Shown piece by piece: positions 45,038-63,619 of a DNA stretch of 64,000 nucleotides (its first letter is position 1; every line of letters starts with the position of its first letter). The stretch lies in assembly GCF_000477435.1 (NCBI RefSeq), contig NC_022576.1:2542001-2606000 (forward strand), in the 5' to 3' direction. The stretch comes from Candidatus Symbiobacter mobilis CR. Lineage in GTDB: Bacteria; Pseudomonadota; Gammaproteobacteria; Burkholderiales; Burkholderiaceae_C. Under the pieces are notes generated by a model. That model ran no database searches. It was given only the letters and a program-made list of their open reading frames with translations, and was not told the origin of the DNA. The position numbers and the translations under genes were made by a program.

Positions 45038-45388
45038 CTATGACAAACAGCTTGCCAATATCTTGCGTAGTGCTGCGACATCTATTGCACGGCGTGTAGC
45101 CTGATCCTGGAGCTGATCCTCGCCGATTTTCCCCACTGGGAAGTACCGGCTTGCAGGGTGTGACAGAAAAAAACCACTGACGCTCGCGGGGGGGCAAATG
45201 GCGTGGTTTTCTGTCAACTGCATCCCGGCCTGCGCACAGTCGAGCAGCGCAAAAACGTCTTGCTTGACGCTGTGATCCAGGCATGCGGGGTAGCCGGGGG
45301 CAGGGTGGATTCCCCGGTACTTTTGGGCGATGAGGTCGTCCATGGACAGCGCTTCGTCGGGCGCGTAGCCCCAGAGGTCGGCGCGTAC
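45038..45388 (-). pseudogene. metH: 3'-terminal metH fragment, copy B
   Basis: Encodes 116 residues of the MetH activation domain (VRADLWGYAPDEALSMDDL ... ALRKILASCLS) with stop TAG at 45038. About 19 of roughly 113 residues differ from the intact MetH at 60858, so it is not a recent copy of that gene. The shared part is nearly identical to copy A at 36511. Upstream it is abruptly joined to a group II intron maturase fragment (45386). Confidence 0.9.
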
Positions 45389-45475
45389 TTTGGGCGTAAG
45401 CCTGAAGTCGGCGATGCAGCATGGTGTCAGCAGCAACAGCTACTGGCAAATGTCCAGAACCCCAGTCATGAACAA
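45386..45475 (+). pseudogene. Group II intron maturase fragment
   Basis: About 90 bp reading ALGVSLKSAMQHGVSSNSY in a frame matching the maturase end at 57824-57908, fused directly to metH copy B. Only this piece of the intron remains here. Confidence 0.7.
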
Positions 45476-45590
45476 TGAAGAAGGGCAAAAATGGCCGCCA
45501 ATGCGCCGCATGCACGCAAACAGCACCGAAGGTGCGCCGAATGGACTATCTGGGTAAACCATAATGGTTGCAGTTTGGTTGGAGATGGAC

Positions 45591-45836
45591 ATGCCCACAA
45601 CGCTGACTTTAAAGAACATTCCGGACGTGGTGTACGCACGGTTGAAAACTTCCGCCGAGGCTCACCGGCGAAGCATGAACAGTGAGGCGATTGTTTGCCT
45701 TGAGGCGGTGCTGCTGCCAGCTAGGGTTGCTCCAACGGAGAGGCTGGCTCGTGCGCGAGCCTTACGCGACGCCCTGCCACAGGGCAAGTTTCTTGCGCGT
45801 GACATAGATGATCTCAAGAGGGAGGGGCGCCCGTGA
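45591..45836 (+). CDS. FitA/VapB-type antitoxin (Arc/ribbon-helix-helix)
   Basis: 81 residues from ATG 45591 (MPTTLTLKNIPDVVYARLK), with GGAG 8 bp upstream; ATG 45585 would add two residues. The N-terminal ribbon-helix-helix half binds DNA. The C-terminal half (ARALRDALPQGKFLARDID) is of the kind that occupies the PIN toxin active site. It overlaps the toxin gene by 4 bp (GTGA). Unlike the other cassette-type genes here it is on the plus strand. Confidence 0.8.
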   Translation: MPTTLTLKNIPDVVYARLKTSAEAHRRSMNSEAIVCLEAVLLPARVAPTERLARARALRDALPQGKFLARDIDDLKREGRP

Positions 45837-46228
45837 TCGTGGTTGACACCAACATCGTGGCGTACCTGTATTTGCCTGGTGATTGCACGAAGCAAGCCGA
45901 GGCGTTGCTTGAGGCCGACCCCGAGTGGGCCGCTCCTGTTCTTTGGAGGAACGAGTTTCGCAACATTCTTGCGGGCTACATCCGACGAAAGGCGATCACC
46001 TTGGACCAAGCATGCACTTTGCAGGACGAGGCCGAAAGTTTGCTTGCAGGTGCAGAGTTCGAGGTAGAGTCGAGCGCGGTGCTGGAACTCGTGCGCGATA
46101 GCCATTGCTCTGCATACGATTGCGAGTTCATTGCTCTCGCGATCAAGTTGGGCACCAAACTGTTCACGGCGGACAAGAAGCTTCTCCAGGAGTTTCCAAC
46201 CCACGCCGTTGCCCTTTCTGCGGGCTAA
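45833..46228 (+). CDS. PIN-domain ribonuclease toxin (VapC/FitB-like)
   Basis: 131 residues from GTG 45833 overlapping the antitoxin stop. PIN acidic residues are present: Asp in MIVVDTNIVAY, Glu in LWRNEFRNI, Asp in SAYDCEFIALA and Asp in LFTADKKLL. Such toxins cleave tRNA or rRNA with Mg2+. Appears intact and paired with the preceding antitoxin. Confidence 0.87.
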   Translation: MIVVDTNIVAYLYLPGDCTKQAEALLEADPEWAAPVLWRNEFRNILAGYIRRKAITLDQACTLQDEAESLLAGAEFEVESSAVLELVRDSHCSAYDCEFIALAIKLGTKLFTADKKLLQEFPTHAVALSAG

Positions 46229-46274
46229 GAACCTATTCCAGTAGGGGCTGCGCCATCGTATTGCACGCGGCGGC

Positions 46275-46357
46275 GGTGCTCGGAATCAGCAGCAACAGCT
46301 ATTGGCAGATGTTCAGAACCCCAGTCATCAACCAAGCACTATCTAACGTGTGGTTAC
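46275..46357 (+). pseudogene. Group II intron maturase C-terminal fragment, left of the IS3 insertion
   Basis: Reads GISSNSYWQMFRTPVINQAL..., matching the maturase end at 57858-57935. It ends in GTGTGGTTAC; the same 10 bp resume the intron at 48026 after the IS3-family element, so this and 48026-48202 were one piece. Confidence 0.8.
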
Positions 46358-46419
46358 CCCCTATGTCACAGTAGATGTCCGATAAATTGAGTAGCCCGGG
46401 GGCGGAGAAGGACACCGAT

Positions 46420-46908
46420 ATGACGAGATACAGCCGGGAATTTCAGGAACAGATAGCACGCAAGATGATGCCACCGAACAGCCAAAGCATTGCGAAGATC
46501 AGCCAAGAGACGGGCGTTTCAACGCCCACCTTGTACGCATGGCGGAATCGATACCGATCACAGGGTCACGTAGTACCCGCGAAACCAGAAGACCCGCAAG
46601 GCTGGGACTGGAAAGCGAAGGCGGCTGCGGTGCTGAAGACGGTGGCGATGAACGAGGCCGAGAAGGCGGAGTACTGCCGACAAAATGGGCTGTACCCAGA
46701 GCACCTACAGGCATGGGAGCAGGTGTTTGAAGAGGCGGACAGTATGCGAGGCCCTGTCAATGCAGGGGATATTGGAGCGGAGCGCAAGAAGGTCAGGCAC
46801 CTGGAAAAGGAGCTGAAGCGCAAGGACAAAGCATTGGCGGAGGCGGCTGCACTGCTGGTGCTGTCAAAAAAAGTCCAGGCCATCTGGGGCAGCAAAGAGG
46901 AAGACTGA
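46420..46908 (+). CDS. IS3-family transposase OrfA
   Basis: 162 residues from ATG 46420 (MTRYSREFQEQIARKM); an upstream in-frame ATG at 46375 would include the IS end. A helix-turn-helix (IAKISQETGVSTPTLYAWRNR) and a C-terminal leucine-zipper coiled coil (VRHLEKELKRKDKALAEAA) are seen. Near its end A7 at 46866-46872 sits in codon phase A AAA AAA. A -1 shift there reads on without stop into OrfB, giving the OrfAB transposase as in other IS3 elements. Confidence 0.88.
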   Translation: MTRYSREFQEQIARKMMPPNSQSIAKISQETGVSTPTLYAWRNRYRSQGHVVPAKPEDPQGWDWKAKAAAVLKTVAMNEAEKAEYCRQNGLYPEHLQAWEQVFEEADSMRGPVNAGDIGAERKKVRHLEKELKRKDKALAEAAALLVLSKKVQAIWGSKEED

Positions 46909-46928
46909 TCACCTCGGAGCTGAAACAG

Positions 46929-47981
46929 ATGGCCATAGACCTGATCAAGGAAGCGTGCCAGCAAGGAGCACGTGAGAGCCGAGCCTGCGCAGTGCTGGAG
47001 ATAACGTGCCGTACCCTTCGGCGATGGCGGGAACAGTTGCGCAAAGAGGGAGTGCTTAGCGACCGACGCATGGAAGCGGCGCAGGAGCGCATTCATCCCC
47101 AAGCGTTGACGGCAGAGGAGAAGCAGGAGGTACTGGATGTGTGCAACAGCGCGGAATTTGGGAGCCTGCCGCCGTCGCAGATCGTTCCGATACTGGCGGA
47201 TCGTGGGAGGTATCTTGCATCGGAATCGACGTTTTATCGAGTGCTGAGGGAAGCAGGGCAGTGCAACCGACGAGGTCGAGCGCGGGCACCGAAGCAGACG
47301 CAGCGGCCACAGGCATGGGAGGCAAGTAGCCCGAATCGTGTGTGGACGTGGGACATCACGTACATGCCGACACTGGTGAAAGGGGAGTTCTACCGGCTGT
47401 ACATGGCTGTGGACGTATACAGCCGGAAGATCATGGGCTGGGAAGTGCATTGTGAGGAAACGGCACAGCACGCTGCGATCCTGATCGAGAAGGCGTGCAT
47501 GGTGCATGAGATCACGCGGGAACAACTGGTGCTGCACTCGGACAACGGAAGCCCGATGAAAGGAGTGACGATGCTGGGTATGTTGCAGAAGCTGGGGGTG
47601 ATGCCATCATTCAGCCGCCCATCGGTGAGCGATGACAACCCGTACTCGGAGAGTTTGTTTCGGACGATGAAGTACTGCCCGAAATATCCAGCCAAGCCAT
47701 TTGAGACGTTGGATCAAGCGCGGGAGTGGGTACTGGGATTTGTGACCTGGTACAACAACGAACACCGGCACAGCGGGATACGGTTCGTCACGCCAGAGCA
47801 AAGGCACCGGCGGATGGACCAGGAGCTGCTCGCAACCCGCAGCAAGGTGTATGAACAAGCCAAGGCGGCCAGACCACAACGGTGGAAGAGCCGAGCGGTG
47901 CGGAATTGGTCACCTGTTGGAACAGTGTGGCTGAATCCACCCAAAGAACATCGGGCGCTCCTCAGAAGCGAGAGTGCCTGA
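46929..47981 (+). CDS. IS3-family transposase OrfB (integrase catalytic domain)
   Basis: 350 residues from the first ATG, but probably made as an OrfAB fusion through the A7 slip at 46866. The rve-type DDE core is complete: Asp in VWTWDITYMPT, Asp in LHSDNGSPMKG and Glu in NPYSESLFRTMKY with the usual downstream basic region (YNNEHRHSGIRFVTP). It appears functional. Confidence 0.9.
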   Translation: MAIDLIKEACQQGARESRACAVLEITCRTLRRWREQLRKEGVLSDRRMEAAQERIHPQALTAEEKQEVLDVCNSAEFGSLPPSQIVPILADRGRYLASESTFYRVLREAGQCNRRGRARAPKQTQRPQAWEASSPNRVWTWDITYMPTLVKGEFYRLYMAVDVYSRKIMGWEVHCEETAQHAAILIEKACMVHEITREQLVLHSDNGSPMKGVTMLGMLQKLGVMPSFSRPSVSDDNPYSESLFRTMKYCPKYPAKPFETLDQAREWVLGFVTWYNNEHRHSGIRFVTPEQRHRRMDQELLATRSKVYEQAKAARPQRWKSRAVRNWSPVGTVWLNPPKEHRALLRSESA

Positions 47982-48025
47982 GTGAAAAAAGCGGACATCT
48001 TTCTTGACAAACACCGGTTACTGGA

Positions 48026-48202
48026 GTGTGGTTACTGGAACAGGGTTTGCGCAGTGTGAAAGGCCTGTGGTGCAAGGCACAGGGTTACATGGTCATCAAG
48101 CGCAAGACATCGTCGAGCGAGCCGACTTGTGGAACCGCCCACTGCGGAACCGCACGGTGGGTGGTATGGGGGCTGGGAGGTAGAAACTCCTGGCTACCCG
48201 AT
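48026..48202 (+). pseudogene. Group II intron 3' end (maturase tail plus domains V-VI)
   Basis: Continuation of 46275-46357 after the IS3 element: maturase tail (LRSVKGLWCKAQGYMVIKR) followed by a GAGCCGACTTG...ACGGTGGGTGG hairpin region and a terminal hairpin ending CTACCCGAT, the same 3' end seen at 50612, 52952 and 58101. The brnTA cassette begins directly after. Confidence 0.78.
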
Positions 48203-48220
48203 GAGACCTTGCCATTGGAA

Positions 48221-48520
48221 CTAGGCACGACGACTATGCCTAGCGACGTACTGCAAAAGCACACCATCCATTCTTGATTGCCAGCCTTCGCCCGTTGATT
48301 TGAAATACTCAATGACCTCGCGGCTATAGCGGACAGAAACCAATTGCTTCGGATTTTCTGATTTCGGGCGGCCACGAACTGCTTTAAGCGGCACCATGGC
48401 CTTGAGTTGAGTGGGGGTCAGCGGTTGTGCATCAGAGTCACTTTTGGCTGCCGCCGTAATGGCCTTATCTTCATCCACTGATGGCATGACGATGGAAGGG
48501 TGCTTAGAGACTTTTGACAT
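48221..48520 (-). CDS. brnA: BrnA-family antitoxin
   Basis: 99 residues from ATG 48520 (MSKVSKHPSIVMP). The C-terminal part (VSVRYSREVIEYFKSTGEGWQSRMDGVLL) is the ribbon-helix-helix BrnA antitoxin signature. It overlaps brnT, which precedes it as in typical brnTA operons that the complex represses. Its stop codon lies in a small palindrome, CTAGGC (48221) / GCCTAG (48238), directly beside the 3' end of a group II intron remnant, as expected where a cassette ends in an attC core. Confidence 0.85.
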   Translation of the reverse strand: MSKVSKHPSIVMPSVDEDKAITAAAKSDSDAQPLTPTQLKAMVPLKAVRGRPKSENPKQLVSVRYSREVIEYFKSTGEGWQSRMDGVLLQYVARHSRRA

Positions 48521-48773
48521 AGTGTGTGACCTCACGACGATTGGCGCGGCGTAGGCTGATGATCCGTCGAACTTTTCCGCGATCTACAAATGCCACGTAG
48601 TACAGGATATTTGTTTTCGGTGCGAGGGCAATCATGCGCATTTCTCCGTACTCGTATCGAGTATCAACCCACACCAACGCAGCATTCCATTCGAGTTCTG
48701 CGGCAAAGGCAAGTGACACCCCGTGTTTTGCCTGATTGCTGACATCTTTGACTGGATCAAACTCGATATGCAT
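48504..48773 (-). CDS. brnT: BrnT-family ribonuclease toxin
   Basis: 89 residues, RelE-like fold. MHIEFDPVKDVSNQAKHGVS is the BrnT opening, followed by YEYGEMRMIALAP and the basic C-terminal RRIISLRRANRREVTHY containing catalytic-type Arg/His. Complete and paired with brnA. Upstream on the minus strand lies GTTAGCC (48835-48841), a cassette-boundary-like heptamer immediately next to the IS1111-type element. Confidence 0.88.
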   Translation of the reverse strand: MHIEFDPVKDVSNQAKHGVSLAFAAELEWNAALVWVDTRYEYGEMRMIALAPKTNILYYVAFVDRGKVRRIISLRRANRREVTHYVKSL

Positions 48774-48841
48774 GCTTTATTGTAGCTACTGTAAATTTGC
48801 ATGTCAATCGAGCGGCACCAACGGTCTTGGCGAGGGCTAAC

Positions 48842-50327
48842 GAATGAAAGGGACTTCCCCGTCCCGAGGTAGCGGCGGAAGCCGCTGGCAGCGGTTGCTG
48901 CCATGATTGAGGTTTCACACTGAATCATTCGTTCGAAAGGGGAAGTCCATGAATATTGTCACCGTAGGCATCGATCTCGCCAAGAATGTATTCGCTTTGC
49001 ATGGTGTTGACCAGAGCGGCAAGGCGGTTTTCATCAAGCCCAAGGTGGCTCGCAGCCAACTGCTCGAAATGATCGCCCACCTGCCGCCCTGCCTGATCGG
49101 CATGGAAGCCTGCTCCGGTGCGCATTACTGGGCAAGAGAATTCAGCCGCTTCGGCCACACCGTGAAGTTGATGGCGCCGAAGTTCGTGGCGCCCTACCGG
49201 ATGAGCGGCAAACGCGGCAAGAATGACGCCGCCGATGCCGCAGCTATCTGCGAAGCCGTCATCCGGCCCAACATGCGCTTCGTCCCGATCAAGGACGTCG
49301 ATCAACAAGCCATTCTCTGCCTGCACCGCACCCGGCAAGGTTTTGTCGAAGAACGCACCGCGCTCTACAACCGCTTGCGCGGCCTGATCAGTGAATTCGG
49401 CATTGTTTTGCCGCAGAAAGTCGAACGCCTGCGCCGGGAAATCGGCGCCCATCTCGAAGCACTCCCCGGTTGGGCCAATCGTTGTGTCGGCGACCTGCTT
49501 GCTCACGCCGACCGCCTGAATGAACGCATTGAGGAATACGACAAAGCAATTGCCCAAGCTGCCCGCCTGGACGCCAGAAGCCGACAACTCATGCAACTCC
49601 CCGGGATCGGCCCGACCACGGCCAGCGCCCTGGTTGCCAGCCTGGGCGGCGGCCACGACTTCAAGAACGGTCGGCAACTCGCCGCCTGGGCCGGACTCGT
49701 CCCCGGCCAATACAGCAGTGGCGGCAAGGCACGCTTGGGCAGGATCACCAAGGCGGGCGACGCCTACCTGCGCAGTCTGCTCGTCATGGGCGCCCGATCT
49801 GTTCTCGCCGGACTCGGCGACAAGCAAGACCGCTTCAGTCGCTGGGCCAGGAATCTGGTCGAACGACGGGGCTACTGGAAAGCGGCGGTCGCCATCGCCG
49901 CCAAGAATCTGCGGCTGGCCTGGGCGGTATTGCACTACGGCGACGATTTCCGACGCATCGAAGAGACTGCCTGAACAGCAAAATCGTCTGTAGGGCAAAT
50001 GAAAAAGGAATCACCGGCTGATCGCTGGCAGCCCAAGACCAGCGAAGCACTGCCAGCGTTGATGTGAAGCGGGTTGGACCCGCGCGGGGAGAGCCTGATT
50101 AGCTCCAGGAGAGGAAGTCACTCTCGGCTAACGAATGAGGTCCCCGCGCGCGTCTTTTATCAGGGTCCGGGCAAAAGCCCAACATGACCGGTTGTAGTAC
50201 CGCAGTCCTTCACCTTCTCGCACCGACACGGCAGGGAATTGATGAATCGCAGAAAAACAGGATCAGGAATGAAACGATAAAACTTCAGAACGTCGCTTGC
50301 GGAAAACGGGGAAGCCCTTGTAGTAGA
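48842..50327 (+). mobile_element. IS1111-type (IS110 family) element inserted at an attC-like core
   Basis: About 1.49 kb. Subterminal inverted repeats AAGGGACTTCCCCGT (48848-48862) and ACGGGGAAGCCCTT (50306-50319) lie 6-8 bp inside the ends, as in IS1111 elements. Direct GCTAAC is present on both sides (48836-48841; 50328-50333) and the right flank is an attC. The left non-coding end carries three hairpins: 48850-48865, 48871-48886 (GGAA loop) and 48887-48902. The right end has about 350 bp non-coding with repeated sequence shared with the truncated relative at 51011-51769. This fits the attC-targeting IS1111 group. Confidence 0.8.
48949..49974 (+). CDS. IS110/IS1111-family DEDD transposase
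   Basis: 341 residues from ATG 48949 (MNIVTVGIDLAKNVFALHG). The N-terminal RuvC-like DEDD domain (Asp in GIDLAKN, GMEACSGAHYWARE, KRGKNDAADAAAICEA) and C-terminal transposase_20 domain (LMQLPGIGPTTASALVASLG, SGGKARLGRITKAGDAYLR) are both present. This type of recombinase works with a structured element-encoded bridge RNA. Intact. Confidence 0.93.
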   Translation: MNIVTVGIDLAKNVFALHGVDQSGKAVFIKPKVARSQLLEMIAHLPPCLIGMEACSGAHYWAREFSRFGHTVKLMAPKFVAPYRMSGKRGKNDAADAAAICEAVIRPNMRFVPIKDVDQQAILCLHRTRQGFVEERTALYNRLRGLISEFGIVLPQKVERLRREIGAHLEALPGWANRCVGDLLAHADRLNERIEEYDKAIAQAARLDARSRQLMQLPGIGPTTASALVASLGGGHDFKNGRQLAAWAGLVPGQYSSGGKARLGRITKAGDAYLRSLLVMGARSVLAGLGDKQDRFSRWARNLVERRGYWKAAVAIAAKNLRLAWAVLHYGDDFRRIEETA

Positions 50328-50380
50328 GCTAACCGGCGCTGCACGGCTTTATCGCGCAGCGTTTGTGTTGAGCGCCGGGT
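50327..50380 (+). other. Integron attC site (5' part), interrupted by a group II intron remnant
   Basis: Palindrome AGCTAAC-CGGCGCT-GC ... GCAGC ... AGCGCCG-GGT. The arms CGGCGCT (50334-50340) and AGCGCCG (50371-50377) pair, with inner GCTGC/GCAGC. The missing right core continues after the intron remnant as CAGGT (50613), giving GTCAGGT. The hicB cassette gene ends in it. Confidence 0.7.
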
Positions 50381-50612
50381 GTGCGCCCAGCATGTGCGCG
50401 AACGAATAGGGTGAAAACCCCTTGAGCGAGAACCGGATGGGACTCATCGTGAGCAATAGTCACCACCAGCCGACGGCAAGGGCTGCTTCGCGAGGAGTAG
50501 TCTGGAGGAAGCCAGAGTGCAAAGGTGCGAGCCGACTTGTAGCACCGCCCACTGCGTACCCGCACGGTGGGTGGTGTGGGGGGCGACGGTTAGAAGCCGT
50601 TGCCTACCCGAT
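50381..50612 (+). mobile_element. Group II intron remnant, 232 bp, ORF entirely deleted
   Basis: Starts GTGCGCCCAGCATG, the group II 5' end (GUGYG), and continues with domain I sequence very like 57454 onward (GCCGACGGCAAGGGCTGCTT, GAGGAAGCC). It then jumps at about 50530 into the domain V-VI region (GAGCCGACTTG ... GACGGTTAGAAGCCGTTGCC) and ends CTACCCGAT. Everything between, including the maturase, is gone. Confidence 0.8.
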
Positions 50613-50830
50613 CAGGTGGTCAAAGCAACTTCAATAAATTTGCTATTGGATTTGGGCATCGGAATTGGTTGACCTTCGAATCGCAAGTCTTCCAAGTGAA
50701 ATGGAATAGCCTCTTGAATAAGGCTGACAACTTCATCTTCAGTTTCACCAACGGCGACACAGCCCGGAAGGTCCGGAACGAAAGAACCATAACTTGTCTC
50801 GCCTTTTTCAACCACTACCAAATATCGCAT
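50612..50830 (-). CDS. hicB: HicB-family antitoxin, orphaned
   Basis: 72 residues, the HicB_lk/UPF0150 fold: MRYLVVVEKGETSYGSFVPDLPGCVAVGETEDE, lacking a separate DNA-binding extension. Its stop falls in the attC core next to the intron remnant. The hicA directly upstream has an internal deletion, so this antitoxin has no active cognate toxin here, though it might cross-neutralise others. Confidence 0.83.
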   Translation of the reverse strand: MRYLVVVEKGETSYGSFVPDLPGCVAVGETEDEVVSLIQEAIPFHLEDLRFEGQPIPMPKSNSKFIEVALTT

Positions 50831-50832
50831 GA

Positions 50833-50973
50833 TTACTCCTTTAAGCCAGCTTGCTTGAGTACCCTGTTCAAGGTTCCGGGTGGCACGTCTACGCTGAGTT
50901 TTCCAGCAATAGTAACGGTTCCAGATTTAATCTGTCCTTTTCAATAACCCGTATCAACTCCAAAACTTTCATG
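50833..50973 (-). pseudogene. hicA: hicA toxin pseudogene with internal deletion
   Basis: ATG 50973 reads MKVLELIRVIEKD, the HicA N-terminus. The frame then shifts and the C-terminal part SGTVTIAGKLSVDVPPGTLNRVLKQAGLKE follows in another frame, ending TAA 2 bp before hicB. Roughly 50-60 bp carrying the catalytic-His segment of HicA are missing. GGAG before hicB is retained. A GTTAGGC core (complement at 51004-51010) lies just upstream. Confidence 0.75.
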
Positions 50974-51010
50974 CGGAAAATTTTACGCCCTGCCCACGAA
51001 AACGCCTAAC

Positions 51011-51769
51011 GAATGAAATGGACTTTCCCATCCTGGATGATCCGCACAGTCACGAGATACGGAATCAAAATGCCACGCTGAGAAGTCGCATCTCTCATCA
51101 ACTCACTGGTTTTCTGGCAGGGGAAATCTCATGGCTATCGTAACCGTTGGCATCGAGCTGGCAAAGAATGTCTTCGCCGTGCATGGTGTGGATTCTTCCG
51201 GAAATGCCGTGCTGATACGCCCCCACGTGCCTCGCACGAAGCTGCCTGAACTCATCGCCTCACTACCGCCATGCTTCATCGGCATGGAAGCCTGCTCCGG
51301 CGCTCACCATTGGGCGCGTCAGTTTGCCACGTTTGGCCACAGCGTGCGTTGGGTGGCTCCCAAATTCGTCGCCCCCTACCGTCCTCTCAGGCAAGCGCGG
51401 CAAGAATGATGCTGCGGACGCAGCGGCCATCTGTGAGGCTACTCGTTGATGTGCAAAGGTTGGGATCTGCGCCGGGAAATGCTCGATGAACTCAAGGGGA
51501 CAAGAGAGGAGAAATCCTCCCAATCCCGACTAACGAATGGGGTACCCGGTGCGCGTCTTTCATCAGGGTCTGCTGCAATCAAAGCAGTAACAGTGACCGT
51601 TTGTAGTACCGCCATCCGCAACATTTTCCAAAGAGCATCAACGAACAGACCACACCGCGATACGGGTTATCTGAGTTGAAAAACCGACAACCAAGACCTG
51701 AGTCAATCGCTACGCGACTGACTCAGGGAGGTTATTGCTTGCAAAGAGGGTGAAGCCCTTGTAGTTCGA
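51011..51769 (+). mobile_element. Truncated IS1111-type element
   Basis: Left end GAATGAAATGGACTTTCCC follows GCCTAAC (51004-51010). The transposase start is at 51131 (MAIVTVGIELAKNVFAVHG), frameshifts near 51385 and breaks off around 51446. The right-end non-coding part (TAACGAATG at 51531, GCGCGTCTTTCATCAGGGTC, GAAGCCCTT) corresponds to 50129-50327. A 9-bp perfect hairpin CCTGAGTCA/TGACTCAGG lies at 51697-51727. GTTAGGC (51770-51776) abuts the right end. Confidence 0.75.
51131..51446 (+). pseudogene. IS110-family transposase, 5' fragment
   Basis: Related to but diverged from 48949-49974. The first about 87 codons are open (GMEACSGAHHWARQF, VAPKFVAPYR). A frameshift precedes SGKRGKNDAADAAAICEAT, after which the remaining two-thirds are deleted. 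Confidence 0.85.
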
Positions 51770-51770
51770 G

Positions 51771-52091
51771 TTAGGCGTCGCTGGTGGAGCGACGAGATGT
51801 ACGCCCGCGAACCTTGGCGGCGGGATTTACTTGTGCGGCATTTACCGTAAGAGGCCCAAGCTTATCTACACGCGTCAGTCCGAGCTTTGCGAGGCCGATC
51901 ATTGCTCCAGGAGTGATCTGCGCAGGCGTGGGACCGAAGTTCCCGAATGCGAACTGATACTCAAGCAGTAGGTCGTACAGGCCTTCGTGCAAGCCATACT
52001 TTTTGACCAGGAGTTCAGCTACTTCCTTCATTGAGAGTGGCGTAGCGACGGGAACTGGGGCTTGGGGTTGCGCTAGCGATTCAGTGGACAT
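51771..52091 (-). CDS. Small protein of unknown function, third gene of a HicAB cassette
   Basis: 106 residues. I do not recognise a family. Residues 20-65 (MKEVAELLVKKYGLHEGLYDLLLEYQFAFGNFG) look helical and the C-terminus is basic (RGRTSRRSTSDA). The ATG overlaps the end of hicB by 11 bp, implying coupled translation. The stop codon (TTA on the plus strand) lies within GTTAGGC, the cassette core site, so it is the terminal gene of the cassette. Confidence 0.6.
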   Translation of the reverse strand: MSTESLAQPQAPVPVATPLSMKEVAELLVKKYGLHEGLYDLLLEYQFAFGNFGPTPAQITPGAMIGLAKLGLTRVDKLGPLTVNAAQVNPAAKVRGRTSRRSTSDA

Positions 52092-52527: not shown

Positions 52528-52529
52528 TG

Positions 52530-52790: not shown

Positions 52791-52861
52791 GCAGCATACA
52801 TCCGTGTGGGCATCAGTGTAACCGTAAAGTAGTTACGCCTGTTGACCTCTGTTTAGGGGGA

Positions 52862-52952
52862 AGATGTCGTCGAGCGAGCCGACTTGTTGAATCGCCCATT
52901 GCGGACCCGCACGGTGGGTGGGGTGACGGCTAGAAACCGATGCCTACCCGAT
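52862..52952 (+). mobile_element. Group II intron 3'-end fragment (domains V-VI)
   Basis: GATGTCGTCGAGCGAGCCG ... ACGGTGGGTGG ... ends CTACCCGAT, followed by TAGGC (attC core remainder). Domain VI is shortened relative to the other copies. The rest of the intron is absent. Confidence 0.75.
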
Positions 52953-53171
52953 TAGGCATCGGTGCTGAACAGGCGCACACGACGCACAACCCACGAACGG
53001 TAGCCAGCGCACAAAAGTCAAAACAATATTTCAACAGCAAGTGCAACAAAGGCGCAGCTAATGCAAAATGATAGCTGATAACATAGATTTGACAAGGGGT
53101 ATAGGCACGAAAGGCATCACAATTTGAACTGCCTAACCGATGATTTCCATCCTGCACCCTGTCGCGTCAGC

Positions 53172-54050
53172 TCAGTAGCACGTCGTCCGGTAGTGCCCTT
53201 TGACCTTGGTGCCATCCTTGCGGGTGTAGCTGTTGATCCACACCGTTTTGCATCCTGTCACTGGTGTGTAGGGCTTGGTGCTGGTACCAGTACTTGTTGA
53301 AGGCGTCACCACAGGCGTTGTTAGTGTGGTGGTTGCGGGGGCGGACCACACTGGATCGTCGCTGGTGCAGGTGGGTGGAGTCGGGTCGGTGCCGTTGCGA
53401 TACACCCAAGGCGGCGTGGCCACAAAAGCCCACAAATCCAAATCTGCGGATTCAGCGGCAGACTGCGCAGCAGCAAACTCTATCCGCAAATCGGCGGGTT
53501 GCTCGCACTGGTATTGCTTGTAATGCCATGCTGAACCCGAGCGCACCTGCTGGAGGTTGGCAAAAACGCAGCCACTGGTGAACACCGAACCCACCGTGCG
53601 ACCGTACTTGTCCACCTTGCTGTAGTACACCGTGACGGACTTGCCTTCGACCAGCGATTTCAGGTTGTCCCTTGACTGGGTGCCGTAGGTTTGGGCCAAC
53701 TCAGGGGCATCAATTGCATCCAGCCGGACGGTGGTAGATCCAAGCTTGATGGTGTCGCCATCATGCACCGAAGTAACCACCCCGACCATAGATGTCGATG
53801 GTACGGTGTAACCGCAAAACGTGACCGTGTTGCTGGTGGCGAAGCTGGCGTTGGGGGCCAAATCCAGGTTGTTTGAGGGGGCATCCAGTTCCAGTTGAAG
53901 CGGGGGTTGTGCCACGGGGACTGGAGTGGCCTCGGTCGCAGCTACCCACGTTGAAGGGGCGGAAGTTGATGGCTCTGGGTCGTCACCGCCGCCACAGGCG
54001 GCCAAGGCTAGTATGGTCAGCGAGGCTACAAAGGTAAGAATGGGTTTCAT
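53172..54050 (-). CDS. SNase-like (thermonuclease-family) lipoprotein
   Basis: 292 residues. Lipoprotein signal peptide with lipobox LALAAC (Cys about 19), then a low-complexity spacer, then a staphylococcal-nuclease domain about 85-215: VTSVHDGDTIKL, VRLDAIDAPELAQTYG (catalytic Arg, Asp, Glu) and DKYGRTVGSVF (second Arg). A Thr/Pro linker leads to a C-terminal motif CKTVWINSYTRKDGTKVKGHYRTTC, a repeat often seen on secreted proteins. Probably an exported, membrane-anchored nuclease. GCCTAAC at 53131-53137 lies just past its end. Minus strand like the other cassette genes. Confidence 0.85.
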   Translation of the reverse strand: MKPILTFVASLTILALAACGGGDDPEPSTSAPSTWVAATEATPVPVAQPPLQLELDAPSNNLDLAPNASFATSNTVTFCGYTVPSTSMVGVVTSVHDGDTIKLGSTTVRLDAIDAPELAQTYGTQSRDNLKSLVEGKSVTVYYSKVDKYGRTVGSVFTSGCVFANLQQVRSGSAWHYKQYQCEQPADLRIEFAAAQSAAESADLDLWAFVATPPWVYRNGTDPTPPTCTSDDPVWSAPATTTLTTPVVTPSTSTGTSTKPYTPVTGCKTVWINSYTRKDGTKVKGHYRTTCY

Positions 54051-54252
54051 GCGATTCTGATTAATAAAACTAATGTGTAAGGAAGGTCTGCATAAATCCC
54101 AATTTCGGCGGCCTATTTGTCGTAACCTATTGATTATTCTGTGGCAGAAACATAAAAAAATGACTTATGCAGAGGTTCCCTAACTCAGGGGCGCAGAGTT
54201 AGACAGTGAATAGTAACAAAGAGGATTGCAGCACAAGGAGGGTCATGGAATT

Positions 54253-54528: not shown

Positions 54529-54844
54529 TGGTCATTCCAGCGTGCAACAATATCATCCACGGATTTCAATGAAGCCGTTAGTGTATCGTGCTGTGCCTGC
54601 TCCTCTTCTTTCCTTTGTTCTAAAGATTTTCGCTCTCGGTCAGCCTGATTTTCACGTTGTTATGCTTGCGCAGTTTCTTGTGCATTTTTTGAAGGATTCT
54701 TTGTTTATTTTTGTATTCGCTAAATTTCCATGCACCAATAAATAATATTACAAGTAACAGAAAATCATCCAAACTGAAAATCTTGTTGTGATCTTTTTGT
54801 CTTTAGGAAAAAATTTTCTTTAACATTTTTTATTATCAATCACA
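54529..54844. other. AT-rich spacer, no feature recognised
   Basis: Between the doubtful small ORF and the IS200/IS605 left end. Base composition is clearly more AT-rich than the core chromosome. I see no gene, RNA or repeat in it. Confidence 0.4.
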
Positions 54845-55084
54845 AGGTTAAAACCACCGGCTTTAGCCGGTCAGCTTTAGCTACGCGAATAAGCCTCAAA
54901 AAAGGGGACGGCATGGATTATAGATACGGAAGTCATACAGTATTCCAGATAGAGTATCACTTTGTATGGGTTACGAAATACCGTTACAAGGTTCTGACGG
55001 GAGAAATTGGGGAGCGGGTCAGAGAGCTAGTGCGAGAAACATGTGAGGCATTTGAAATCAGGATTGTGAAGGGTGTGGTAAGTA

Positions 55085-56990
55085 GTATCTGACAGAAAAA
55101 TAGAAAACCATGCAAAATCAACAGGGTACGCTACGTTTGGGTGGGTGAAGATTGAGCCGCTTTCCTGCGATTTTCATGAGATTATGCATAAGATGTCGCA
55201 TTACACACAAAATTTTTAATTTTGATATAATATTTTCATCCTACTTCAATCTTCATTAAAATAATTGGGAACTACATGCGCTCTGTCATAAATCCTCAGA
55301 TGAAATTAGGCGAAGATCCTATCGCCAACATTCAACTTGATCTGCGTTCTCGCGATGATATCCCAAAATTGCTGCTAGGACTTCAGTACATCTACACAAT
55401 ACCAGACGTACGCAAAGAAGTTTTCTCTATCCTCTCAGAAATTCTCCCGGTACTCCCTTCTGGTGAAAAAGTAAAAGCACATATGGGTCGCCCAGGTATG
55501 TCGCAGTGGCAAATTCTTGTCATCGGTGTGGTTCGATTGGGTCTGAATATCGATTACGACCGATTGGAAGAGCTGGTGAATCAACATCGGACATTGCGAC
55601 AAATGCTCGGGCATACTGACTGGTATGATGAGACAAAATACAACGTGCAAACCCTGAAAGATAATTTGAGGTTATTTACCCCAGAGATTCTTGATCGAAT
55701 CAATCAAGTTGTGGTCAAAACCGGCCATACGCTAGTAAAAAAAAGCCCGGACGACGTTCTACACGGTCGTTGTGATTCCTTTGTCGTTGAAACAGATGTA
55801 CATTTTCCAACCGATTTGAATCTTCTTTTTGATGCTATAAAAAAGATCATTGCATGGAGTGCAAAGTTAGCGGAGAAACATAAATTGTCTGGCTGGCGTC
55901 AGCATGAACACTCTTATCGCCAATTCAAAAAGCAGTATCGCCATATCCAGCGGCTTCGGCGCTCTCATTCAAAAAATGAAGCCAAACGTGCAGCAAAGGA
56001 AGCTGCCATCCACGAAGCATGCGAGGAATATCTCAAGCAAGCCAAAGAGCTGTTCGAGCGCGCCACCCAAACAAGGCAGGAAGTCGTCTTGGCTGCATCG
56101 CAGATCAGCGCACAGGAGCAAGGGTTGCTATCGAAGCTGCAGGTCTTCATAGGGCATGCAGAAAAGTTATCAGATCAGATTCGCCGTAGGGTGATCAACG
56201 GGGAACGCATTCCGCATTCGGAAAAGATATTCTCGCTGTTTGAACCGCATACGGAGTGGATAAGCAAAGGCAAGGCTGGTGTGCCTGTGGAATTGGGGGT
56301 AAAGGTTTGTATTCTGGAAGATCAACATCGTTTCATTCTGCATCATCACGTTATGGAGAAGCAAGAAGATAACGAAGTTGCTGTACCAATGGTTGAAGCT
56401 GCCAAAGAACGATTCTCGACTTTGAATGCCGTGAGTTTTGACAAAGGATTCCACAGTCAAGAGAATCAGAAAAAATTGGCAAAATTATTAGACTGTGCTG
56501 CTTTACCAAAGAAAGGGCGCTGTTCTCAAGCGGAACAAGAACGAGAATCGAGCGAGACATTTGTGAAACTACGGAAAGCACATTCTGCTGTAGAGTCGGC
56601 GATCAATGGATTGGAACACTTTGGTTTGGATATGTGCCCCGATGAGGGAATAAAAGGATTCAAACGCTATGTTTCATTGTCAGTCTTGGCACGAAATTTT
56701 TACCGTATTGGCATGGTGGTTCGTCAGCAATCGATTGATGCCGAGCGAACGACACCACCATCCATTCGTCGAGCGGCTTGATGCCGCTCGACGGTCTTTT
56801 TCAAGGGATGCATGAGTGGTTGCAGAGGATAGCTTTTCCTTCATTCACCAATAATTCAATTTTTGGAGCAGGATACATGGTTTTTGTCAAAATTCGACCG
56901 CAAAAAAATTTGTAATCCGGTCTAGGTTCCGGATCACTTCCTGAAAGTACCGGGTACACGCATCAAAAATCCGACTTTTCTGTCAGCCAC
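55085..56990 (+). mobile_element. 1906-bp IS nested in tnpA, probably ISNCY (ISDol1-like)
   Basis: Flanked by 6-bp target duplication TAAGTA (55079-55084 and 56991-56996). Terminal inverted repeats are GTATCTGACAGAAAA and, on the other strand, GTGGCTGACAGAAAA. It holds a single 501-residue transposase gene. Family assignment is from length, 6-bp duplication and protein character; boundaries are exact from the interrupted tnpA. Confidence 0.88.
55276..56781 (+). CDS. Transposase of the nested IS (ISNCY-like)
   Basis: 501 residues from ATG 55276. The N-terminal DNA-binding part (MGRPGMSQWQILVIGVVRLGL, LRQMLGHTDWYD) is followed by a charged coiled-coil stretch (HSYRQFKKQYRHIQRLRR) and a DDE-type core with candidate acidic residues in VVETDVHFPTD, NAVSFDKGFHS and the C-terminal AHSAVESAINGLEHFGLD. 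No frameshift was seen, so probably active. Codon use is more AT-rich than the core chromosome. Confidence 0.8.
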   Translation: MRSVINPQMKLGEDPIANIQLDLRSRDDIPKLLLGLQYIYTIPDVRKEVFSILSEILPVLPSGEKVKAHMGRPGMSQWQILVIGVVRLGLNIDYDRLEELVNQHRTLRQMLGHTDWYDETKYNVQTLKDNLRLFTPEILDRINQVVVKTGHTLVKKSPDDVLHGRCDSFVVETDVHFPTDLNLLFDAIKKIIAWSAKLAEKHKLSGWRQHEHSYRQFKKQYRHIQRLRRSHSKNEAKRAAKEAAIHEACEEYLKQAKELFERATQTRQEVVLAASQISAQEQGLLSKLQVFIGHAEKLSDQIRRRVINGERIPHSEKIFSLFEPHTEWISKGKAGVPVELGVKVCILEDQHRFILHHHVMEKQEDNEVAVPMVEAAKERFSTLNAVSFDKGFHSQENQKKLAKLLDCAALPKKGRCSQAEQERESSETFVKLRKAHSAVESAINGLEHFGLDMCPDEGIKGFKRYVSLSVLARNFYRIGMVVRQQSIDAERTTPPSIRRAA

Positions 56991-57397
56991 TAAGTAAGGA
57001 TCACGTGCATATCTTGGTAAGTTGCCCGCCGGTAATGGCACCAAGTGAGATTGTCCGGAGGCTGAAAGGGCGGACAGCAAGCAAGCTGTTGGAAGAGTTT
57101 CCACACATAAAAAAGAGATACTGGGGACGTCACTTTTGGGCGAGAGGATACTTTTGTGCAACTGTAGGGCAGATGACAGAAGAAATGATTAAGAGCTACT
57201 TAGAACACCATTTTGAACCGAGGCAGAACGATGATTTCAAGATGGAGCCGGGCTAAAACGCGTCGTTCAGCCGACGCGTATCCGGACTTTCAGTCCGTAA
57301 TATCAACCCACCAGCTTTAGCTGGTGGTTGTTGAGTTGTGGAATTGGTTTTGAATGGAAATCAGCTATAGATGAAACCTAAAGTGCGACACGGCGCT

Positions 57398-57453
57398 GCC
57401 TAACATCCAAACTCAGGGATGCGCCGTAGGTGCGATCCACTGGAGTGCAGGGT
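57398..57453 (+). other. Integron attC site (5' part), interrupted by a group II intron remnant
   Basis: Core GCCTAAC (57398-57404), then ATCCAAACTC pairing imperfectly with GAGTGCAGG (57444-57452). The site ends GGT at the intron junction and continues as TAGGC after the intron at 58102. Joined, the right core is GTTAGGC, the exact complement of the left core. Confidence 0.78.
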
Positions 57454-58101
57454 GTGCGCCCAGCATGGGCGCGAACTTATGGGGTGGAAGTCCCCTGTGG
57501 GAGAACCGAATTGGACTCAACGTGAGCAATAGTAACCACTAGCCGACGGCAAGGGCTGCTTTGCGAGAAGTAGTCTGGAGGAAGCCCGAGTGCAAATGTG
57601 CGAGACGACGAACAGAAACCGCATAGAAGGCCCAGAGTGCCGAGGCGAGCTGCCCGCTGCGTGCCGAAGAAACTGGTGGAATCGTCATCCCGGAACACAG
57701 CGTGACTTGCAGCAAGGTAATACCGGTCTATCCCCGAACTAGACGAGTGGATCAGAAAGCGTATCCGAATGTGCTACTGGAAACAGTGGCGCTGGCTGCG
57801 TACGAAGATCAAGAACTTGCTGGCTTTGGGCATAAGCCTGAAGTCGGCGATTCAGCACGGTATCAGCAGCAAGAGCTATTGGCAGATGTTCAGAACCCCG
57901 GTTATCAATCAGGCCATATCCAGCGTGTGGTTACAGGAGCAGGGTTTGCTGAGTGTGAAAGACCTGTGGTGCAAGGCACAGGGATACATGGTTATGAAGC
58001 GAAAGACATCGTCGAGCGAGCCGACTTGTGAAACCGCCTATTGCGGACCTGCACGGTGGGTGGTGTGGGGGGCGACGGCTAGAAGCCGTTGCCTACTCGA
58101 T
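57454..58101 (+). mobile_element. Group II intron remnant, 648 bp, most of the maturase deleted
   Basis: 5' end GTGCGCCCAGCATGGGCGCG and about 230 bp of domain I (GTGGAAGTCCCCTGTGGGAG, CGACGAACAGAAACCGCATA) are joined at about 57700 to the maturase X/DNA-binding end (LDEWIRKRIRMCYWKQWRWLR, GISLKSAIQHGISSKSYWQM). Domains V-VI follow, ending CTACTCGAT. The reverse transcriptase domains are missing. Inserted GT^TAGGC in an attC, opposite in direction to the cassette genes. Confidence 0.85.
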
Positions 58102-58320
58102 TAGGCCGGTTGGTCTCACCCTGTAATAAGCAAGGAAATAAAATCATCTTGGCTCGTAGTTATTTCTTTTTGAACACGGAGCTTCAATTTATCAGCTTCA
58201 GGTACCATTATTTTGTAACGTATGTAACCTGGAAAACGAGGTTCAATAATCTCGACTTTCTTTTCCAAAGCTCCTAAGTCACACAATTTCTGCAATGTGT
58301 CAGTAGACACGCCTGAATTA

Positions 58321-59230
58321 GAGCCTATTTCAGTAGGCAATATGCCCTTAAAGTGATTAGGGCGCAAGTGAGGTGCAACATGGCGATATACGTTTCAGGA
58401 AGTTTTTCCCAACGAACCAGAATTCGGCGAAAGCGATTCATCCAGCTATGTGTACGTTCTACTACCCAGCGCCGTGCCTTGAAACCAGCTTCTTGCTTTA
58501 TAGATTTAGCTTCTTCGCCTCTGGAACGAATGTGAGCCGTAAAGCCAAATTCTTTGACGATCTCTCTTACTTCATCAAAATCGTATCCTTTGTCCAAGCA
58601 GATGCCTTGTGGTTTTGTATCCGTCGGGTCTGGTCGTTTTGCTTTGATGTCTTCCAGCGTACTCCTGACCAACTTCATGTCGTGCCGATTCGCACCGTCG
58701 ATGGCGACGGCAAGCGGTATGCCTGCACCATCAGTAAGCACACTGCGCTTGACACCTTGCTTGCCTCGATCTGTTGGGTTGGCCCCAGTTGTTTGCTGAC
58801 CTGCTAGGGGCGCTTTGGTTAACGCTCCATCCATGGATGTCCATGCCCAATCAATGCCTTGGGATTTGTCGTATTCGACCAATTGTTGTATCCAAAGGGC
58901 TGAAAATATACCTGCTTTCGTCCATTCGCGAAAGCGTCGATAGGCAGAACTGCACGAGCAAATTCCGGTCATGTTTAAGGCGTTCCACTGGCAGCCAGTT
59001 CGCAATACGAAAAGAATTGCGTTCATTGCGCTGCGATCAGATACACGCGGATTATGGCAACCAAGGGGATGTTTTTTGGGTTCAGGGAGCGATGATTTTA
59101 TTATTCCCCAGAGTGCATCATGCAATCTCCGCCCATCATCATGAAATATCAGGCCCATAATTTTCCTCATCTGGGTTATTGCGACTGTGATGATTAATAT
59201 TATATATCATTAGCCTACTGAAATAGGCTC
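58321..59230 (-). mobile_element. IS5-family element (IS427-like), 910 bp
   Basis: Terminal inverted repeats start GAGCCTATTTCAGTAGGC at both ends. Target duplication TTA (58318-58320 and 59231-59233), the TNA pattern of IS427-like elements. Contains one transposase gene. Confidence 0.93.
58325..59158 (-). CDS. IS5-family transposase
   Basis: 277 residues from ATG 59158 (MGLIFHDDGRRLHDALWG); a start 12 bp earlier is possible. DUF4096-type N-terminus (RTGCQWNALNMTG), DDE residues in TSMDGALTKAP, GICLDKGYDFDE and WVVERTHSWMNRFRRIL. Unlike many IS427 members it is a single continuous frame, so no frameshift is needed. Confidence 0.93.
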   Translation of the reverse strand: MGLIFHDDGRRLHDALWGIIKSSLPEPKKHPLGCHNPRVSDRSAMNAILFVLRTGCQWNALNMTGICSCSSAYRRFREWTKAGIFSALWIQQLVEYDKSQGIDWAWTSMDGALTKAPLAGQQTTGANPTDRGKQGVKRSVLTDGAGIPLAVAIDGANRHDMKLVRSTLEDIKAKRPDPTDTKPQGICLDKGYDFDEVREIVKEFGFTAHIRSRGEEAKSIKQEAGFKARRWVVERTHSWMNRFRRILVRWEKLPETYIAMLHLTCALITLRAYCLLK

Positions 59231-59834
59231 TTAGTAGCTTCAAGCACATTACTGTTTATTATTTCTAAGTCAACCCAATCAGTCGAAATAGCCTTGAAAA
59301 CTAACTCTCGCCGCTTTAAATTTGCTGTAGAGCGATCTTTAAGCGATCCATTGAAAGAGGAGTTCCTTCTAAAAAGCTCAATCTCTTTCCGGGGGCGTGA
59401 AGGTACGCCGGCTAAAACTTGGTATGCTATGCTGATACTTTGCAAAGCTGTTTCCCATCGTTCGTAGGCTTGGGGAGTATCATAAAGTATATCGCCTTGC
59501 GAAAAAGAAAAAGTGCTGCCTTGCGTCCAGATACGGCTTTTTTTGCCGTCTGTAATCTTATCTGTCTTCTTGATATCAAGGGCATCCAGAAAACATGTAC
59601 GGACCGCTACTCCCCATCCTTTTGCAAAACCTTCTTTGAAATCTGCTAATAAATCGTTTATACGTTCGCCATTGTCTCTAAGTGATATTGCAAGGCTAAG
59701 GATTTCAAGTGATTTTCTTCTGTATACGTCAGTATCTTGCAACATGTTTGAGGTTTCGTTGTCATTATTCATTATTATTTCTCTTATTGAAAACCAGTTT
59801 ACGGATTAGTAATAAGATAAGGTTAAAGTTTTTA

Positions 59835-60419
59835 TTAAACATTCATCATTTTCCAAAATTCTTGTGGTGAAATAATACTTGTTCCATATTCCAGAGCTTT
59901 TTTAGTTTTATTTGTTAGTTCTTTATACTCGCCTGTTACTAAAAAAACACATCCATTTGTTACATTATCAAGCCATACAAATCCTACATTATTTGCTATT
60001 CTTCTTGCCTCTTTCCTTTCAAGTTTGTTCCCGCTCTGGTCGTACATCTGACCTGTAAAGCAAATAGTATTTCCATACCAAGACCCATCTTTATTGACAG
60101 ATTGTTCATCTGAGAATCTTTCAATTGCATTCCAACAAGCTGCTGCTGGGTCTCTATAGTAATTTCCCACACCTCTTTTTCTCTTTATTTCTTCCCATAA
60201 ACTCTGTTTTTCTAAGAAAGAGTAGCAACTATCAATCCTATCTTGATTTAATTCCAAATTTTCAATAGCTTGAGCTAGTCGGTCAATTACGTTTCCTTCT
60301 TTTGAATAGTACCAACTCCCATTAGCTTCCTGCCTCCAGCCATAGCCTCGCCTATCAACAGGCTTATCATTAACATAAAACTGTCCATTTTCATCACAAG
60401 TAATTTTAAATTTACTCAT
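59835..60419 (-). CDS. BRCT-domain protein, first-position integron cassette gene
   Basis: 194 residues from ATG 60419, with AAGGA upstream. The N-terminal 100 residues are unrecognised (MSKFKITCDENGQFYVNDKP). Residues about 113-192 form a BRCT domain of the NAD-ligase/DinG type: GNTICFTGQMYDQSG, ARRIANNVGFVWLDNVTNGC, FLVTGEYKELTNKTKKA, ISPQEFWKMM. BRCT domains bind phosphopeptides or DNA ends. AT-rich against the GC-rich core. GTTAGGC (complement at 60441-60447) lies 21 bp upstream, marking the attI/cassette junction. The IS5-disrupted gene follows. Confidence 0.72.
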   Translation of the reverse strand: MSKFKITCDENGQFYVNDKPVDRRGYGWRQEANGSWYYSKEGNVIDRLAQAIENLELNQDRIDSCYSFLEKQSLWEEIKRKRGVGNYYRDPAAACWNAIERFSDEQSVNKDGSWYGNTICFTGQMYDQSGNKLERKEARRIANNVGFVWLDNVTNGCVFLVTGEYKELTNKTKKALEYGTSIISPQEFWKMMNV

Positions 60420-60440
60420 AAATTTGTATCCTTGAACGTA

Positions 60441-60517
60441 GCCTAACGTAAATTCAACTGCACCACAATGCAGTCTATCCTGCCAAACTGCCGTGTACCA
60501 AGCATTTCTCTGAAGTC
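60441..60517 (-). other. Putative attI region and first cassette junction
   Basis: GCCTAAC at 60441-60447 (GTTAGGC on the cassette strand) followed by about 70 bp up to the integrase start codon. This is where attI and the cassette promoter of an integron would lie. The rest is assigned by position only. Confidence 0.5.
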
Positions 60518-60851
60518 ATGAATGCTCCCACTGCCCAATCTCCTCGCTTTCTTGACTAGATCCGAGAGGCGCTTCGTTTGCGGCATTACAGCTTGCGCAC
60601 CGAGCAAGCATACATCGACCGAACAAAACGCTTACCCATGTTTCATGGCAAGCACCATACGCATGAACTGGGGCCGCATGATGGCGAGGCATTTGTACAT
60701 CCTTGGCATTGGCCATGAAAGGTAGCGTTTCGGCCTCGACCCAAGCGGCCACAGCCTTTGCCAACGGCGCTAACACCAGAAGAAGTGCCCCAGATGCTGG
60801 CCCGCATGAAAAGTACGCATGCGCTAATCAACACTCGGGTTCCCGCCTAAC
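60518..60851 (+). pseudogene. intI: Integron integrase (intI) remnant
   Basis: ATG 60518 reads MNAPTAQSPRFLD-stop-IREALRLRHYSLRTEQAYIDR, the start of an integron tyrosine recombinase with a premature TAG where family members have Gln. HGKHHTHELGPHDGEAF corresponds to the SAM-like domain. After a frame change and an internal deletion, KRPQPLPTALTPEEVPQML marks the region before the catalytic domain. The catalytic R-H-R-Y half is absent. It ends at GCCTAAC (60845-60851) next to the metH stop. Cassettes extend from its 5' side, as in real integrons. Confidence 0.82.
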
Positions 60852-60857
60852 TGGCCA

Positions 60858-63614
<2,757 letters not shown>

Positions 63615-63619
63615 GGGGT

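Follow-up and report, generated by a model that had tools for sequence, protein, structure and literature searches.

The 64,000-nt stretch of DNA analysed here (the window) covers C1:2542001-2606000 of the 2.99-Mb, single-contig (C1) genome of Candidatus Symbiobacter mobilis CR; positions are those of the window unless prefixed C1, and L-numbers (L028, L029, L030, L032, L033, L034, L171, L174, and L175) denote loci fetched from the same genome. Between 45 and 61 kb, at the 3' side of the gene metH, lies a real, decayed chromosomal integron, as the initial annotation had proposed, and its components are each of a known kind: an attI site, two pieces of an integron integrase gene (intI), clustered core heptamers, and one clear cassette recombination site (attC). 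Its notable features are the apparent double occupation of an attC, by a group II intron and an insertion sequence (IS), and the abundance of such introns. We read the locus as the remnant of a sedentary integron with about five cassettes, most likely frozen because its attC sites were invaded (probability approximately 0.9). The features that this reading needs are, from metH leftwards:

60858..63809, minus strand: metH, start codon uncertain
60845..60851, minus strand: additional GTTAGGC core separating the intI remnant from metH and lying 6 bases beyond the metH stop (pattern and ORF end)
60518..60828, plus strand: intI remnant, two pieces, both from the first part of intI, with one TAG and an internal deletion of about 80 bp, catalytic part gone
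60441..60517, plus strand: attI, core GCCTAAC (GTTAGGC on the minus strand) together with the sequence as far as the intI start, aligned with two other copies in the genome
57454..58101, plus strand: group IIC-attC intron in attC-a, internally deleted, GTGCG...AT (Rfam match and junctions)
57398..57453, plus strand: body of attC-a (core and L boxes), cassette bottom strand, remaining core piece at 58102-58106 (model and joined-site score)
52861..52952, plus strand: intron 3' piece ending ..CCGAT/TAGGC (DNA match and junction)
51004..51776, no strand assigned: attC-b, whose cores (51004-51010 and 51770-51776) are parted by an IS1111-type element with an internal deletion, body lost
50381..50612, plus strand: group IIC-attC intron remnant at attC-c (RF00029 at 35.2 bits and RF02001 at 30.8, each short of its gathering score; junctions)
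50324..50380, plus strand: body of attC-c, with an IS on one side and an intron on the other (13.4 bits, E 0.14; junctions)
48842..50323, plus strand: IS1111-type IS at attC-c, transposase ORF 48907-49974, far core GGCTAAC 48835-48841 (NF033542, 368.8 bits)
46278..48202, plus strand: intron 3' piece split by an IS3-family element into 46278-46356 and 48026-48202
45389..45472, plus strand: intron piece (maturase C-terminus), fused to the metH fragment
45055..45388, minus strand: second metH 3' end without the upstream part, 288 of 334 positions identical to the true end

The integron-integrase model TIGR02249 matches the remnant at C1:2602548-2602703 (window 60548-60703, plus strand; 29.3 bits, E 9e-7), spanning model positions 1-52 of 315 with one TAG inside and scoring far under the 265-bit cut-off. 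At the DNA level, 60442-60747 and 60741-60828 are 84.7 and 87.5% identical, respectively, to the intact attI-intI (817-517 and 437-350 of L029), and this alignment places the loss of about 80 bp between the two intI pieces and finds no intI homology beyond 60828. A third attI-intI copy (C1:84461-84712) is 77.9% identical at the DNA level; in the attI alignment, the copy at the intact locus (C1:47.8 kb) has TCCTAAC at the core position, and the third lies at C1:84.46 kb. With its TAG, internal deletion, and missing catalytic part, the window gene does not qualify as a functional integrase. An N-terminal intI remnant with its 5' end towards an array of minus-strand genes, as annotated initially, is therefore what the model match and the DNA identity confirm; a XerC/D fragment or chance as the source of the remnant is ruled out because the remnant matches the intact intI at the DNA level.

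The core heptamer GTTAGGC occurs six times in the window, at 51770 (plus strand) and at 60845, 60441, 57398, 53131, and 51004 (minus strand), and all six copies fall inside 51004-60851. With 77 occurrences across the 2.99-Mb genome, 0.25 are expected in this 9.85-kb stretch (Poisson P about 3e-7, for an interval picked post hoc), while for the whole window the six copies compare with 1.65 expected (P 0.007). The earlier observations that such cores cluster here, and that the one at 51770 overlaps the stop of the ORF at 51771-52091 (orf106), both hold, the latter by the ORF coordinates. The core at 60845-60851 may mark a secondary recombination or be due to chance. Further clusters are found at C1:49.8-88.5 kb (11 copies), 2389.6-2402.8 kb (seven), and 2442.8-2452.7 kb (four).

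A strict attC scan of 20 sources returned nine sites (four in L029, two in L033, two in L175, and one in L174), none in the remaining 16 sources, the window among them, and none in the window or L175 after simple shuffling of their letters (five shuffles for each). An attC model was built from 16 aligned sites, none of them from the window, consisting of eight of the nine complete sites and eight joined empty sites at intron insertions; its covariation was 0.318 vs. 0.131 in shuffled alignments (0 of 500 as high), with slid controls at 0.037-0.122 and the structure supplied by hand. Within the window the model has two matches with E of 10 or less, of which attC-a (57398-57459; 23.6 bits, E 0.00018) had been held out from training. 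Neither the model nor the strict scan detects an uninterrupted attC in the window. Genome-wide, with 150 of 1686 first-look candidates scored, there are 26 matches at E up to 1, and 11 of these terminate no more than 7 bases from the 5' end of an intron, a share that is biased upwards because eight of the 11 were in the training set; the held-out sites among them are that of the window and those starting at C1:1883429 and C1:773385. At E up to 0.001, the genome has 22 attC matches vs. 0 to 14 in 39 others (129 candidates scored each).

The intron in attC-a matches RF02001 above its gathering score (57557-57710, 49.6 bits) and RF00029 below it (31.8 bits); the matches below gathering score lie at 50484-50575, 50543-50612, and 58032-58101. 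Across the fetched loci, the junctions of 24 3' ends and 18 5' ends fit an intron GTGCG...AT whose 5' exon terminates in GT, and TAGGC starts nine of the 24 3' exons. The attC lies at the 5' side and TAGGC at the 3' side of an intron oriented opposite to the cassettes, clearly at attC-a and weakly at attC-c. In a pairing score (maximum 15, the tail TAGGC being assigned to every site), nine of the 16 non-window 5' exons score 13, among them 66828, whose first core is borrowed from the end of a different intron; of the others, a single exon scores 12, two have scores of 8 and 9, and four yield no site. The window sites at 57452 (attC-a, joined empty) and 50379 score 14 and 10, respectively; among 5000 random sites, four reach 13 and none reaches 14.

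A full-length copy of the intron (C1:2156193-2157777) encodes a 436-aa maturase (TIGR04416, 419 bits), whose best solved relative is the GsI-IIC reverse transcriptase (445 bits, vs. 132 bits for LtrA), so that class C is read here from scores and not from a tree. The window yielded no intact maturase; genome-wide, the maturase domain PF08388 is matched 11 times. A 90-base query from the intron 3' end is matched 28 times in the genome, with 25 of the matches extending to 9 bases or fewer from the query end, and a 156-base query from the full-length copy is matched 21 times (21/37 candidates scored), compared with at most four matches in each of 39 relatives and any match in only 10 of them. Intron relatives also occur in 486 plasmid records, and in the one inspected the intron protein is flanked by dfrA14 and qacEdelta1 and is encoded on the opposite strand. 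Introns of the IIC-attC type are described in the available portion of PMC7923331 as having ends GTGCG...AT and entering the attC bottom strand at TTGT/T, opposite to the cassettes, and terminators as well. The window introns resemble those of the S.ma.I2 type (accessible parts of PMC7923331 and PMC8876359) in the GTGCG...AT ends, the 5' attC hairpin, the use of the bottom strand, and the orientation opposite to the cassettes, as well as, for the full-length genome copy only, in the class-C-like maturase. They differ in being internally deleted and without an intact maturase, and in a copy number far above that of the 39 relatives searched.

Fourteen introns with both ends, labelled by hand, comprise three with attC and TAGGC, seven with a 5'-side attC and a 3' side without TAGGC, three with TAGGC and without attC, and one with neither; some of the seven may merely be mutated at TAGGC. 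One of the three TAGGC copies without attC is a shortened intron (L171 7295-7599, C1:1011295-1011599), which follows a terminator-like hairpin behind pntB (Pfam PNTB) and has TAGGC at its 3' side; the hairpin folds at -22.4 kcal/mol and is absent from the list of a simple terminator scan. We considered C1:1011599 as proof of intron recombination, which it is not, as the TAGGC there may reflect chance or target preference.

The element at 48842-50323 encodes an IS110-family DEDD transposase (NF033542 and Pfam), has subterminal inverted repeats matching at 14 of 15 positions with a one-base gap and 349 non-coding nt after the ORF vs. 64 before it, and is placed between GGCTAAC and the attC-c body. 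A second, internally deleted IS1111-type fragment (51011-51764, in attC-b) is bordered by GCCTAAC and TTCGAGTTAGGC, and two IS copies in L029 that have the same ends match it at 94.8-96.5% identity; subterminal inverted repeats were not recognised in this fragment. In all four IS1111-type copies inspected, two of them outside the window, an attC-like core stands on one side. ISKpn4 and ISPst6 are presented in the part of PMC11187229 available to us as IS1111-attC elements whose ends flank attC-like cores, and the window elements share with them the DEDD transposase, the subterminal inverted repeats, the long downstream non-coding region, and the insertion at one end of attC; unlike ISKpn4 and ISPst6, one window copy is an internally deleted fragment and the other sits at an attC that an intron occupies as well. 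Judging from the junctions, attC-c appears to have been invaded on both sides, by IS and intron, its own attC score being weak.

The sequences, junctions, and target positions of these elements are direct observations, as is a full-length IntI gene elsewhere in the genome. TIGR02249 has 11 genomic matches, two above and nine below the cut-off: those above are the full-length intI at C1:46767-47711 (477 bits) and a broken intI at C1:2386950-2387603 (310 bits), and those below include N-terminal pieces at C1:84567 and C1:2684223 besides the window piece, some of the nine probably being other tyrosine recombinases. Provided that the single contig is circular, the full-length gene is 436 kb from the window remnant; its product bears what we take to be the tyrosine-recombinase motifs R, HxxR, and Y, read by eye. 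Integron integrases are able to act in trans, and the surviving IntI, if active, could have served the window array. The initial annotation attributed the immobility of the array to the loss of the catalytic half of its integrase; this cause is not supported, because the genome retains a full-length IntI gene at another locus. The better-supported cause is that the window yielded no intact attC and that the recognised ones are split by attC-targeting elements. The full-length intI at C1:46767-47711 and the attI with an intI N-terminal remnant at C1:84461-84767 (L028-L030) face each other 37 kb apart, with several uninterrupted attC between them, an arrangement that suggests two joined integron platforms.

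The attI and the first-part intI pieces beside metH, followed by about five cassettes reading away from them, are what remains of a sedentary chromosomal integron. In the mechanism that we propose, a group IIC-attC intron would reverse-splice into the bottom-strand hairpin of attC at GT/TAGGC, and an IS1111-type element would insert beside the opposite core. Either insertion would separate the paired core sites that IntI requires and prevent the folding that it needs, and the array would thereby become fixed although an IntI gene persists; the loss of recombination in the window array is a prediction of this scheme.

Several observations weigh against it. The model match at attC-c (50324-50378; 13.4 bits, E 0.14) is marginal and not significant alone, the pairing score of 10 at its joined site is reached by 10.7% of random sites, and, with both cores in place, the pairing of its L box is equalled by 16% of random stretches. 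Moreover, attC-b retains only its cores, the body being lost, no usable attC was found for vapBC or for the staphylococcal-nuclease-like (SNase) ORF, which has one core only, and the double-sided pair-change count of the attC model was equalled in 21 of 500 shuffles. The attC sites counted in the window are thus one at E 0.00018, one at E 0.14, and the cores of attC-b. The initial annotation counted two attC palindromes; of the two model matches, attC-a is significant and attC-c is not by itself. The covariance-model check of the array recovers one of two attC clearly, and the strict scan none.

The region could instead be a general dump of IS and repeats in which the core heptamers arose by chance and the integrase remnant is a piece of XerC/D, since pieces of IS5, IS3, ISNCY, IS200-like, and IS110 elements fill much of it and attC-c is marginal. 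We consider this very improbable: the DNA of attI and intI aligns with that of an intact integron locus elsewhere in this genome, attC-a was found despite being held out of the model training, and the cores are clustered. A different cause for the same remnant, in which intI broke first and the attC invasions were incidental later damage, is a credible possibility to which we give somewhat less than an even chance. Nearly one third of the intI genes in one survey are pseudogenes (as given in the portion of PMC2426708 at hand), and an early Xanthomonas screen found the majority of integrase genes inactivated (PMC12444791, part available); here, however, a full-length IntI gene is still in the genome and uninterrupted attC persist near the intI at C1:46767-47711.

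The history of the locus also bears on metH, whose name comes from the best 80 of 591 named stretches and whose C-terminal 300 aa are matched in 28 of 30 genomes, its own included. metH and the fragment at 45055-45388, the sole other genome match at E up to 1e-20, bracket the array, and their homology stops near the stop codon; left of the fragment, the window holds no further integrase or attC matches (TIGR02249 and the attC model). The two ends are 86.2% identical over 334 bp, their 46 differences being distributed 9/8/29 over the codon positions, and at the protein level the fragment reaches 81% identity along its 116 residues, vs. 62-68% for same-genus metH over their own, mostly longer, stretches. 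The two ends probably diverged as functional alleles, to go by their sequences; a duplicate drifting in a purely neutral way would show no preference for third positions, and therefore two alleles joined by recombination are favoured. A tandem duplication of metH plus integron is not favoured, the codon-position bias pointing to allelic divergence. As an addition to the attC-invasion reading, the metH 3' end of a related lineage may have recombined in together with the integron, or the array may have been rebuilt, the old end being left at 45055-45388. The 29 of 46 differences at third positions, the higher protein identity of the fragment, the homology stop near the stop codon, and a divergence of attI-intI from the intact copy similar to that between the metH ends all agree with such horizontal recombination. 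On the other side, the fragment runs directly into an intron piece at 45388, therefore illegitimate joining is equally possible, and a comparison of nine window proteins (24-43 kb) with 14 of 27 relatives' loci (13 of the same genus and one of the same order) revealed no shared gene order, with one weak histidine-kinase match and several loci ending at contig ends, hence no pointer to the native side. We regard the chances of this addition as evenly balanced; the confidences given to it, to the attC-invasion reading, and to prior breakage of intI are not mutually exclusive.

Read as a remnant frozen by attC invasion, the locus resembles the Xanthomonas ilvD-locus integrons (excerpted text of PMC12444791) in combining an intI remnant at a housekeeping gene with cassettes and a decayed integrase. 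It differs in adjoining metH, in being flanked by a second metH 3' end, in its interrupted recognised attC, and in the full-length intI elsewhere. With integrase-less attC clusters (CALIN) it shares cassettes without a working integrase alongside; unlike these, it retains attI and part of intI, and has fewer clear attC. Integron decay is usually judged from the integrase gene, whereas here a full-length integrase gene persists while two kinds of site-finding elements block the recognised attC of the array, and such blocking would be an additional way for cassettes to turn into permanent chromosomal genes. A role of IIC-attC introns in cassette formation has been proposed, according to the later paper PMC7923331 (seen in part), and the numerous copies of the intron in this genome, some within attC and others outside it, offer material for testing it. 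More speculatively, a bloom of attC-seeking group II introns and IS1111-type elements in this lineage might freeze integrons by attC occupation rather than integrase loss, and exchange between intron copies might re-sort gene ends and attC hairpins, giving intermediates of the proposed intron route to new cassettes; we think this unlikely on present indications.

The cassette genes and remaining elements of the array are:

59835..60419, minus strand: BRCT-domain ORF, first cassette, LigA-like C-terminal domain (Pfam BRCT E 3.7e-5; LigA models weakly)
59215..59772, minus strand: second ORF of the first cassette, without a family match; the IS5 insertion has apparently displaced its 3' part
58318..59235, minus strand: IS5-family element in the first cassette (NF033580, 252.7 bits; 98% copy in L032)
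53172..54050, minus strand: SNase ORF (Pfam SNase E 1.1e-16), beside it only the core 53131-53137
52953..53130, minus strand: small cassette without a recognised gene, likewise beside an intron end in L029 and L034
51771..52790, minus strand: cassette with hicA (52530-52790), hicB (52081-52527), and orf106 (51771-52091) (Pfam HicA_toxin E 3.5e-8, HicB E 1.9e-16)
50612..50940, minus strand: hicB-like antitoxin gene (50612-50830; HicB_lk_antitox E 5e-13) and hicA C-terminal piece (50836-50940)
48221..48773, minus strand: brnT (48504-48773) and brnA (48221-48535) (Pfam E 1.1e-19 and 4.2e-17)
46929..47981: ORF of the IS3-family element inside the intron piece 46278-48202 (NF033516, 193.8 bits)
45564..46228, plus strand: vapBC, FitA-like antitoxin and PIN toxin (Pfam), against the cassette orientation

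From attI leftwards, the BRCT ORF, the second ORF (interrupted by IS5), and attC-a are followed by a stretch with IS200-like and ISNCY elements and the SNase ORF, the small geneless cassette, hicA-hicB-orf106, and attC-b, and then by the hicB-like gene with the decayed hicA, attC-c, and brnT-brnA; the stretches named here as single cassettes are putative mobile units. The BRCT ORF, orf185, SNase, hicAB-orf106, hicB-like, and brnTA genes all run on the minus strand away from attI, the exception being vapBC on the plus strand. The initial view of toxin-antitoxin genes as cassettes in one orientation is accordingly sustained for hicAB and brnTA and fails for vapBC, which is not shown to be a cassette because of its opposite orientation and lack of an attC match.

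A search of a very large protein set gave nine homologs of the BRCT ORF, itself not counted, and most of these come from short contigs. A defence role was dropped because its match to PADLOC PDC-S48 (E 2.4e-11) covers residues 115-193 only, that is, the BRCT stretch. We further infer that 58116-58367 is the other half of the ORF at 59215-59772. The small cassette, with its intron end included, is 75% identical in DNA to L029 over window positions 52861-53137 and 84.6% to L034 over 52861-53096. The hicA piece at 50836-50940 (HicA_toxin E 1.7e-5, 25.3 bits vs. a 27-bit cut-off) has its upstream part out of frame, and the whole of 50612-50940 has an 82.8% copy in L033. The intron 3' end facing the end of brnT-brnA continues with GAGAC, not TAGGC; it lies 18 bases from the brnA end (48203-48221) with no attC core between, as if the gene had been joined to the intron. 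The IS200-like element at 54828-57338 is interrupted by an ISNCY-family transposase gene, and its pieces at 54828-55084 and 56991-57338 are each 100% identical to adjoining stretches of L034.

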